Of a stretch of DNA of 54,927 nucleotides, positions 30,450 through 33,982 are shown piece by piece. A program made the translations under genes and the position numbers. The stretch is taken from the NCBI GenBank assembly GCA_003818285.1, contig RPRB01000013.1, positions 1 through 54,927 of the forward strand. Direction: 5' to 3'. The first letter of the stretch is position 1, and the number at the start of each line of letters is the position of its first letter. The notes below the pieces were generated by a model, which was given only the letters and a program-made list of their open reading frames with translations, searched no databases and had not been told where the DNA came from. The stretch is from Myxococcaceae bacterium (GTDB lineage Bacteria; Myxococcota; Myxococcia; Myxococcales; Myxococcaceae).

Positions 30450-32852
30450 ATGGTCGACAGCAGCGACTTGGCGCTGGTGCTCTCGGAGGCGGACGACATC
30501 GCCCAGAGCGTCTCTCAGAAGCCCACGACGGCGCACGCGGTTCTGGCGCTCTTCACGGTCGACAACGCCGGGCAGCGACTCCTCAAGGAGCGGGGGGTGG
30601 ACGAGGACCGGCTGCTGGCCCTGGTGAAGTCCGCGCCCACCGAGCCGGACGGAACCCTGCGCGAGCTCCGGGAACGCGCCCGGGAGATCGCCCGGGCTTG
30701 TGGCTCCCGGGAGGCGGACTGCCTGCACCTCCTCATCGCTGTCACCCGGCTGCGATGCGCCGGTCACGAGCTGCTGGCCGGCACCGGGCTGGACCTCACC
30801 GCGGTGCGCAACACCGCCCTTTCCTACTTCCTGAGCGGCCGGATGCCGCGCAAGTTCGGGCCGCGCGACGCCCGCTCGCCGGCCCGCCCGGCTCCGTCCC
30901 CTCCGCGGGTGTCGACCACCGTGGCCCTGCTTCCCGAGGCCTCACCGCGGGCGCTGGTGGACTCGGACGGCGAGGCGCTGGCCGCCTTTCCCCTTCCGGC
31001 ACCGGCGCCCGACCCGGCGTCCTCGCCGGTGCTCCGGGTCATCACGCCCACGGAGGGGCTGCCCTGGGAGCTGGACCCGGCCACCTTTCCGCTCCTCGCC
31101 CAGCTGGGTCGGAACCTCACCGCGCTGGCCCGGGAAGGAGACCTGGACCCGGTGGTCGGCCGGGCGCGGGAGATGGAGGAGGTCCTCGACGTCCTCGGCA
31201 AGCGCCGGACCAACAACCCCTGTCTGGTGGGCGAGCCGGGCGTGGGGAAGACGGCGGTGGTGGAGGGCGTGGCCCAGCGGCTGCTCTCCGCCCCGGGCGA
31301 GCTGGGCAAGAAGGTGGTCGTCGAGCTGTCGACCGCGGACCTCCTCGCCGGCACCTCGCTCCGGGGCTCGCTGTCCGAGCGGCTCAACGGCCTGAAGGAG
31401 GAGATGCGCCGGGCCGCCGGGCGGGTGGTGGTCTTCCTCGACGAGATCCACACCCTGGTCGGCGCCGGGTCCACCGGCGAGGGGGCCCAGGACGCGGCGA
31501 ACGAGCTCAAGGGGGCGCTGGCCCGGGGGGAGTTCCCCTGCATCGGGGCCACCACCCACGACGAGTTTCGCCGGTTCATCCAGGCCGACGCGGCGCTGGA
31601 GCGGCGCTTCACCGCGGTGGTGGTCCGCGAGCCGACCGTGGCGGAGACGGTGGAGATCCTCTCCGGCCTGCTGGCCCGCTACGAGGAGCACCACCGGGTC
31701 CGCTACGCGAGGGCCGCGGTCGAGGCCGCAGCGTCGCTGGCCGCGCGCTACGTGACCGACCGGCACAACCCGGACAAGGCGGTCTCGCTGCTCGACCTCG
31801 CGGGCTCGCGGGTGGCGAGGGCCGGCCGGGACCGGGTGGAGGTGCGCGACGTTGCCGAGGTGGTGGCCCGCATCGCCGGGCTCCCGGTGGAGCGCCTGCT
31901 GACCGGGGACGCGGCCCGGCTGCTCCGGCTCGAGGAGGAGCTGGGCGCGCGGGTGGTGGGCCACGCCGCGGCGGTGGAGCGGGTGGCGCGGGTGCTCCGG
32001 CGCAACTACGCGGGGTTCGCCAGTCGCCGGCCGCTGGGGAGCTTCCTCTTCCTGGGCCCCACCGGGGTAGGAAAGACCGAGCTGGCCCGGGCGCTGGCGG
32101 ACGTGCTCTTCGGCACCCGCGACGCCCTCATCCGGCTGGACATGAGCGAGCTCTCGGAGTCGCACGCGACGTCCCGGCTCATCGGCGCGCCGGCGGGCTA
32201 CGTGGGCTACCAGGACGGCGGGCAGCTGACGGAGGCGGTCCGGCGGCGTCCGAGCGCGGTGGTGCTGCTGGACGAGGTGGAGAAGGCGCACCGGGACGTG
32301 CTGATGCTCCTGCTCCAGCTCCTCGAGGAGGGGCGACTGACCGACGGGAAGGGCCGGCAGGTCGACTTCTCCAGCACCGTGGTGGTGCTCACCTCGAACC
32401 TGGGGGCCGAGGCCTTCGGGAGGACGCGGGCCCGGGTGGGCTTCGGGGCCGACGACGCCGACGAGGGCGGAGCATCGGCGGCCCTCGGCGAGGCGCGGCG
32501 GGCGCTGCCGCCCGAGCTGTGGAACCGCATCGACGAGCGGCTGGTGTTCGGCGCGCTCGGCCGGGACGACCTGCGCCGCATCGCGCGCATGCTGCTGGAG
32601 GAGAGCAGCCGGCGGCTGGCGGAGGAGCGGGGCATCGCCTTCGCCGCCGGGGACGACGTGGTCGAGACGCTGCTCGACTCGGAGGACATGGACCCGCTCC
32701 TCGGGGCGCGGCCGGTGCGGCAGATCGTCCAGCGCTCGATCGAGGCGCCGCTGGCGGAGCACATCCTCGCCGGGAAGGTGGCGGCCGGGAGCCGGGTGCG
32801 GGTCCGGGTGGTGAACGGGCGCATCCGCTTCGGCGGCGACACCGGGGGCTAA
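30450..32852 (+). CDS. ClpA/ClpC-type AAA+ protease unfoldase subunit
   Basis: 800 residues. Double Clp N-domain (1-~128), a Pro/Ala linker (~140-200), AAA1 with Walker A GEPGVGKTAV at 261-270 and FLDEIHTLVGAG, then AAA2 with GPTGVGKTELARALA and VVLLDEVEKAHRDVL. The two AAA modules are joined directly with no ClpB middle domain. A ClpP-docking-like tripeptide loop is seen in RARVGFGADD of AAA2, so a protease partner is likely, but no clpP is nearby. ATG 30450 follows GGGGAGGG very closely. The stop codon TAA shares its last base with the left inverted repeat of the downstream element. Confidence 0.92.
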   Translation: MVDSSDLALVLSEADDIAQSVSQKPTTAHAVLALFTVDNAGQRLLKERGVDEDRLLALVKSAPTEPDGTLRELRERAREIARACGSREADCLHLLIAVTRLRCAGHELLAGTGLDLTAVRNTALSYFLSGRMPRKFGPRDARSPARPAPSPPRVSTTVALLPEASPRALVDSDGEALAAFPLPAPAPDPASSPVLRVITPTEGLPWELDPATFPLLAQLGRNLTALAREGDLDPVVGRAREMEEVLDVLGKRRTNNPCLVGEPGVGKTAVVEGVAQRLLSAPGELGKKVVVELSTADLLAGTSLRGSLSERLNGLKEEMRRAAGRVVVFLDEIHTLVGAGSTGEGAQDAANELKGALARGEFPCIGATTHDEFRRFIQADAALERRFTAVVVREPTVAETVEILSGLLARYEEHHRVRYARAAVEAAASLAARYVTDRHNPDKAVSLLDLAGSRVARAGRDRVEVRDVAEVVARIAGLPVERLLTGDAARLLRLEEELGARVVGHAAAVERVARVLRRNYAGFASRRPLGSFLFLGPTGVGKTELARALADVLFGTRDALIRLDMSELSESHATSRLIGAPAGYVGYQDGGQLTEAVRRRPSAVVLLDEVEKAHRDVLMLLLQLLEEGRLTDGKGRQVDFSSTVVVLTSNLGAEAFGRTRARVGFGADDADEGGASAALGEARRALPPELWNRIDERLVFGALGRDDLRRIARMLLEESSRRLAEERGIAFAAGDDVVETLLDSEDMDPLLGARPVRQIVQRSIEAPLAEHILAGKVAAGSRVRVRVVNGRIRFGGDTGG

Positions 32853-33093
32853 GTGCTCCGGCCGGGGTGTGCTGAGCGCTGCGGCGGCCGATCCTCTCGC
32901 TTCGACGCGCAGCCTCGTCGCTACGCTGCTCGACGCCCCCCGCCCCAGGGGGAGGCTCGCGGAGCCGCGCACCGGCGCGGCACGTCCGGGCTCACGACCG
33001 CGAGGCACGCCTCCGCTGCTCGCTCCTCGGGTGCGCCCTCTCGCTTCGGTCTCGGCCACCTCGCTGTGCTCACCACACCCCGGTCGGAGCACT
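32852..33093. repeat. 242-bp intergenic element with 26-bp terminal inverted repeats (MITE-like)
   Basis: The left end 32852-32877 begins AGTGCTCCGGCCGGGG and the right end 33068-33093 read in reverse begins AGTGCTCCGACCGGGG; the 26-bp arms agree at 24 positions, and weaker similarity continues to about 40 bp. Inside are three hairpins: CCCCC/GGGGG (32936-32952), GGCTC-GCG-GAGCC (32954-32966) and GCCGCGC-ACCG-GCGCGGC (32964-32981). It encodes no plausible protein and fills the whole gap between the clp gene and the DUF2520 gene. It may be a non-autonomous mobile element or a structured RNA region. No target duplication longer than about 3 bp (CTA) can be seen. Confidence 0.65.
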
Positions 33094-33097
33094 AGCC

Positions 33098-33982
33098 GTG
33101 GCGGCGACGGGGCCCCGGCGACCGCGCGTGGTGGTGGTCGGCGTGGGCCGGCTGGGCAGCGCCATCTCCGTCCAGCTGCGGAAGGCCGGCTGGCCGGTGA
33201 CGGTGCGCACCCAGTCACCCGCGGGGCGGCGGCAGGCGAAGCGGCTCGGGTTGGCGGAGGCGGACGCGGCGGCGATGTCCCGGGCCGAGCTGTGCCTGTT
33301 GACCGTCCCGGACGCGGCGGTCGAGCCCGTGGCGCGCGCCGTGGCCCCGCTGCTCGGGCGGACGACCGGGCTGGTCCACTGCGCGGGCGCGCTCACGCTG
33401 GAGGCCCTGCAGCCGGCAGCGGCGGGCCGGCCTACCGGCTCATTCCATCCGTTGGTCTCGGTGACCGGGCCGGAGACGCCGCTGGCGGGACATGCGGTGG
33501 CCATCGCCACGCGGTCGCGGGTGCTCGCGCCGCTGCTCGGGCGGCTCGCCGAGGCGCTCGGGCTGCGTCCGCTGCGGGTGCCGGAGGAAGGTCGGGCGGC
33601 CTACCACGCCGGCGCGGCGATGGTCGCGAGCGGGCTGGTCTCGCTGCTCGATGCGGCGATCGCCGCGTGGCGGGCCGCGGGAGTGTCGGAGCGCGAGGCG
33701 ACGGCCGCGCTCGCGGCGCTGATGCGGTCGGCGCTGGCGGGGGCCGAGCTGCGAGGCACCGTGGCAGCATTCACCGGGCCGGTGGTTCGCGGCGACGCGG
33801 ACGTGGTCCAGGCGCACGTCCGCGGCCTGCCGCCGGACGTGCTGCCCATCTACCTGGCGCTCCAGCAGCGGGTGCTCGCCCACGCCGCGGCCCGGCTCCC
33901 CCGCCCCACCGTGGCCCGGGTCGCCGCGGTCCTCGGACCGGAGCCTGCGCGGCGCAAGGGCACGCGCCCCCCGCGCCGGTGA
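33098..33982 (+). CDS. Rossmann-fold oxidoreductase with DUF2520 domain
   Basis: 294 residues. Residues ~9-110 are an NAD(P)/F420-type Rossmann fold (VVVVGVGRLGSAISVQLRKA; LCLLTVPDAAVEPVARAVA; LVHCAGALTLEAL). Residues ~115-285 are the DUF2520 helical domain (GSFHPLVSVTG; AAYHAGAAMVASGLVSLLDA), related to ketopantoate-reductase/6PGDH-like dehydrogenases. The substrate is unknown. GTG 33098 starts 4 bp after the inverted-repeat element, which must therefore carry its leader or promoter unless it is read through from the clp gene. Confidence 0.9.
   Translation: MAATGPRRPRVVVVGVGRLGSAISVQLRKAGWPVTVRTQSPAGRRQAKRLGLAEADAAAMSRAELCLLTVPDAAVEPVARAVAPLLGRTTGLVHCAGALTLEALQPAAAGRPTGSFHPLVSVTGPETPLAGHAVAIATRSRVLAPLLGRLAEALGLRPLRVPEEGRAAYHAGAAMVASGLVSLLDAAIAAWRAAGVSEREATAALAALMRSALAGAELRGTVAAFTGPVVRGDADVVQAHVRGLPPDVLPIYLALQQRVLAHAAARLPRPTVARVAAVLGPEPARRKGTRPPRR

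Follow-up and report, generated by a model that had tools for sequence, protein, structure and literature searches.

The window, by which we mean the whole 54,927-nt stretch analysed (contig RPRB01000013.1 of a Myxococcaceae bacterium), contains two + strand genes separated by a short element with inverted ends. The upstream gene (30543-32852, start codon not established) encodes a Clp-family AAA+ ATPase that matched Pfam AAA_2, ClpB_D2-small and, at scores below the equivalog cut-offs, the ClpA/ClpB profiles, and it ends at the element. The downstream gene (33098-33982) encodes a Rossmann-like/DUF2520 protein (PF10728, PF10727). The original prediction had described near-perfect 26-bp inverted ends at 32852-33093, and counting confirmed this: the terminal arms paired at 24 of 26 positions and at 28 of 32 over a longer arm (88% over 32 nt), and about 6.0 million arm comparisons found no other match of at least 22/26 in the window. 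The element folded far better than shuffles, with RNA z-scores of -5.5 for the + strand and -5.3 for the - strand. The last base of the clp stop codon, TAA at 32850-32852, did fall inside this span. The proposal that the element exactly fills the gap between the two genes held only to within 5 nt, as the downstream gene begins with GTG at 33098.

The element is absent from a congener, G001, where GGGCTAGGCCGTG links the two genes, whereas the window reads GGGCTA-A..C-TAGCCGTG. The comparison indicates that the element entered a CTAG site and duplicated the TA, with one extra A at its left end; the extra A was also found in some other copies. On the evidence of the empty site, the insertion is better drawn as a MITE-like unit at 32852-33092 on the + strand (long form, 241 bp, or 242 with the last base originally included), with the left TA of the duplicated target at 32850-32851, within the clp TAA stop, and the right TA at 33093-33094. 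Along the + strand, the left terminal inverted repeat AGTGCTCCGGCCGGGGTGTGCTGAGC (32852-32877) is followed by the left arm of a conserved core hairpin (32877-32935), an inner repeat of about 62 bp in the hairpin loop (32935-32997, approximately 84-146 of this copy), the right arm of the hairpin (32998-33064) and the right terminal inverted repeat (33067-33092). The two hairpin arms were delimited by a core model and by covariation. The terminal sequence of this end type is GTGCTCCGACCGGGG.

The whole genome assembly (5.77 Mb in 502 contigs) was searched with the element, and the 54 matches fell into two classes, those to an outer element (about 181 bp) and those to a shorter inner unit (about 62 bp). 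The outer element was present in approximately 20 full or partial copies, a lower bound because several copies end at contig edges. The copy in the window and a second copy (C175), 92% identical to each other, were long forms with the inner unit in the hairpin loop. The length of 242 bp originally given is thus the span of this copy, while the basic unit of the family is about 181 bp, to which the 62-bp hairpin repeat has been added in the loop. The family ranges from about 181 to 242 bp, and its members are short and multicopy, contain no transposase gene and have matched terminal inverted repeats in every end type, all of which is expected of a MITE.

The inner unit is itself a 62-bp double-hairpin repeat, CCCCCGCACCAGGGGG...GCGTCCGGGCTCA, which inserts into palindromes, including the hairpin loop of the window element. 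More than 12 further copies were found in the same genome (L053-L065), alone or in 60-bp tandem arrays. It resembles the CGTC-tagged REP repeats (PMC3733652), which also have paired hairpins with CGTC next to the stem and occur as dimers or clusters, although the likeness is one of description. The genome carries four genes for Y1 (REP-type) transposases (L115-L118), and REP transposases were rejected as movers of the inner repeat because no copy of the repeat adjoins any of the four.

A search model built from the core sequence only, without structure, was run on 145 genomes of the order and detected the family in 33, which represent 16 of 46 genera and include none of the listed genomes of 8-14 Mb. 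When sampling was widened within the phylum, just two more genomes gave matches, one with a weak single match and one with 12 weaker matches. The latter genome (G154) belongs to another family of the phylum, outside the order, and its best match had an E-value of 3e-11. Plasmid and phage collections gave no match to the window element, and no description of the family, or of similar repeats in Anaeromyxobacter or Myxococcus, was found in the open-licence literature. The element is therefore neither single-copy nor without kin in relatives, and, taken together with the empty sites, the target duplications and the covariation described below, this upholds the original view that it is a MITE or a structured RNA, not ordinary spacer; the support is for a MITE and for a selected structure, which may or may not act as RNA.

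Target duplications differed between end types. Most copies with TA end types were flanked by TA duplications, and imperfect TA flanks occurred in part of the copies that share the window's end type. In the closed genome G033, copies were flanked on both sides by TGA or TCA, and a relative of the same genus (G049) held the empty sites for three of these copies with a single TGA, TGA and TCA, respectively. Target duplication together with an empty site was thus seen both for TA (through G001) and for TGA/TCA (through G049). The core was found 18 times in G033 and once in G049, a difference that suggests recent bursts or losses.

A gene stop adjoined 36 of the 53 copies with enough flanking sequence, counting only stops of long, GC3-rich reading frames, and the stop lay at the left end in 21 cases and at the right end in 21. 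At the same loci the corresponding values were 2.2% for random positions and 38% for CTAG sites, where the CTAG count includes element ends. CTAG is concentrated at stop codons in GC-rich genomes, which is why copies come to lie in the space separating a stop codon from the next start. Target choice and survival between genes therefore explain the stop-codon location, with random orientation.

The end sequences varied from genome to genome and also inside one genome. Two types in G033 (G033a and G033b) had cores that were 95-97% identical and ends that were only 52-56% identical, and random 24-mers average 47% and reach 63%; the two end types thus show a mutual identity at the random level around a nearly identical core. 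A sister element nested in a copy in genome G036 (L155) was flanked by TTA duplications, and its ends read GCCCGTCTTATTCACGG. That genome also held two IS1380-related elements, one of them identified as IS1380 with an E-value of 5e-80, and both had ends that matched or resembled those of the nested sister. The interior of the sister aligned with most of the other cores well above dinucleotide shuffles, with z-scores of 5 to 8 in five of six comparisons and 2.5 against G039. Since the core stayed constant while the ends were swapped, the same core would have been moved by at least two kinds of transposition machinery. Sisters with IS1380-type ends lie inside the G036 element at L155:1696-1878 and L172:1592-1842, and other copies carry the uninterrupted site CGCCTTAGGTCTCGG. 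Copies of two end types in G010 (L119, L131, L132, L125, L128, L130) carried a hairpin insert (GCGCATGTC..GACAYRCGCAGCCCAGG, about 35 bp) at the same core position, and its presence in both suggests, from the sequences compared, an exchange of cores between end types.

A CTAG target with a duplicated TA is typical of IS630, and the window element shows this pattern, as an IS630-derived MITE would. Among 26 genomes, however, IS630-type (DDE_3) transposases gave four hits, whose ends did not match those of the element, and they were absent from the genome of the window and from most carriers; derivation from an IS630 element with shared ends was rejected on this basis. A search of the element's own genome with the end pattern, for a transposase or autonomous partner with the window's ends, returned only MITE copies in the assembly of 502 contigs, and no IS4/IS5-type transposase (PF01609) was found there. 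The closed genome G033 contained no larger element with the same ends, as all paired hits were 160-180 bp apart and four hits were alone. An IS with nine copies in G033 was considered as a partner and set aside, as the representative checked was without such ends. The matching transposase for which the original prediction suggested looking was thus found for the sister end type, as IS1380, and not for the end type of the window.

The pairing of the core was predicted from 14 representatives as a single continuous, interrupted stem of 36 pairs, of which 18 showed double compensatory changes. Covariation, also proposed at the outset as a check, was strong: the score was 0.352 compared to 0.140 in shuffles (0/500) and at most 0.085 when the pairing was slid, and the central stem alone gave 0.323 compared to 0.176. 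The prediction was then tested on 59 distinct copies, taken from genomes not used for the model and aligned by sequence only. Here, 93.0% of the predicted-pair cells were paired compared to 38-53% for slid pairings, and 349 double compensatory changes were counted compared to 20-63. Several core pairs flipped between G-C and C-G in near-equal numbers, whereas certain mismatches hardly changed among the 73 sequences: C6-T130 was kept in 70, C27-T109 in 72, G36-G99 in 72, T39-C96 in 73, C40-T95 in 72, T52-T84 in 65 and T55-C81 in 72, and a bulge at T25 was invariant (73/73). The window copy kept 31 of the 36 core pairs and all seven conserved mismatches. That pairs co-vary while mismatches stay fixed is expected if a mismatch-marked fold is under selection. 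A coding function for the core was rejected, because the indels that separate the families have lengths not divisible by three.

Mobility, copies, target duplications, the variety of ends and the conserved mismatched hairpin together support a MITE family that carries a selected DNA or RNA hairpin, as distinct from plain spacer. We consider it probable, at roughly 0.6, that the element is MITE-like with two modules, namely ends used by a transposase and a selected, mismatched core hairpin. The outer module would be formed by the inverted repeats at the two ends, about 25 bp each, on which a transposase would act in trans; the window's end type inserts at CTAG with duplication of TA, and other types give 3-bp duplications of TGA, TCA or TTA. 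The inner module is the core of about 127 nt, forming one long interrupted hairpin whose pairs are kept by compensatory changes. We infer a link between the core and the spread of the family, in which the hairpin would be recognised as a folded single strand or a cruciform during transposition or replication and would thereby aid its spread. What speaks against the two-module reading is that the window's own genome yielded no transposase carrying these ends and the closed G033 no larger element with them, that IS630 is mostly absent from carriers and lacks such ends where present, and that the TA flanks of some copies of this end type are imperfect. As a tentative extension, which we regard as possible but somewhat doubtful, the hairpin may be an independent module, a folded strand marked by its mismatches and recognised by a host or transposition factor, repeatedly repackaged between the ends of unrelated IS (TA-duplicating, TSA-duplicating and IS1380) and spread through the order by changing carriers.

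The same ends, target duplications and copies would also fit an ordinary MITE in which only the ends have a function and the core has none, with the core pattern arising from recent spread, gene conversion and template-switch correction, and core segments do seem to have been exchanged between end types, as with the 35-bp insert of G010. Template-switch correction could make compensatory changes in a palindrome, but it should also erase mismatches, yet between 65 and 73 of the 73 sequences, from many genera, keep each mismatch and the bulge unchanged while neighbouring pairs flip. Conversion within a genome, moreover, leaves the conservation between families unexplained, and we regard an inert core as unlikely. 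Far less can be said for a hairpin formed by chance in spacer or a regulatory leader specific to this operon, whose one attraction is the location inside an operon-like gene pair; the element is multicopy, occupies many unrelated sites and is absent from the orthologous site of the congener, and for these reasons we rule this reading out for practical purposes.

A core that acts as a structured RNA, either a small RNA or an mRNA 3'-end element that hitchhikes on transposons, would account for the strong covariation, although covarying pairs do not by themselves tell RNA from single-stranded DNA. On the + strand most mismatches are pyrimidine-pyrimidine, so that the minus strand, which would be the functional transcript, reads G-A, A-G and A-A, non-canonical pairs that are common in RNA; such mismatches are stable in RNA and single-stranded DNA alike. 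Copies at gene ends would, in addition, be co-transcribed. On the other hand, the copies show no orientation bias relative to neighbouring genes (21 vs 21) and little wobble asymmetry, with 26 G-T compared to 41 A-C on the + strand in counts not corrected for relatedness, and these two observations give no support for a + strand RNA. Nor was a promoter-like or terminator-like site seen, and Rfam 15 reported no family in the window and none over the core in the six copy loci searched. A minus-strand RNA or a single-stranded DNA is possible; a hitchhiking RNA gene as such appears quite improbable to us, and we would favour a role of the DNA in spread.

Several known repeats are comparable. ERIC of enterobacteria (also IRU or RU-1) is a short, non-coding, mostly intergenic imperfect palindrome of about 127 bp that occurs across genera and has TA ends, and in Yersinia its presence at 3' gene ends alters mRNA stability (PMC2229807, PMC10969869). 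The element resembles ERIC in its TA ends, its spread across genera and the terminal inverted repeats and target duplications listed for it (PMC2229807, PMC10969869), whereas the ERIC terminal repeat is listed as 7 bp (PMC2229807) compared to about 25 bp here. RUP of Streptococcus pneumoniae is a MITE of about 107 bp with a TA target, presumed to be mobilised by an IS acting in trans, and Correia/NEMIS of Neisseria combines TA ends and inverted termini of about 24 bp with a long stem-loop and a gene-proximal location (PMC2229807). The ends of RUP match IS630-Spn1, whereas no IS630 with the present ends was found, and Correia/NEMIS belongs to a different host group in which cleavage of its transcripts by RNase III is known. 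The comparison with ERIC is by description only; the element gave no Rfam match, and no match in the plasmid collection, where enterobacterial records are many. To our knowledge, neither swapped ends nor invariant mismatches have been reported for ERIC cores. Integron attC sites are likewise imperfect hairpins, in which unpaired bases are conserved and the terminal loop is variable; the element has terminal inverted repeats and short target duplications, with no gene cassette seen, and the first two features speak against its being an attC site.

The family bears on how bacterial MITEs spread when no transposase is in sight, and on whether what lies between their ends matters. A conserved inside with exchangeable ends is the reverse of the usual picture and would not be expected of ordinary transposon remnants, and here the fold is marked by invariant mismatches. 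The two-module reading would also account for a class of gene-end intergenic repeats in many myxobacterial genomes. At the locus itself, a GGAG at 33086-33089, in the right terminal repeat, lies 8 nt ahead of the GTG of the downstream gene, and the right end of the insertion may, judging by this spacing, have supplied that gene's ribosome-binding site.
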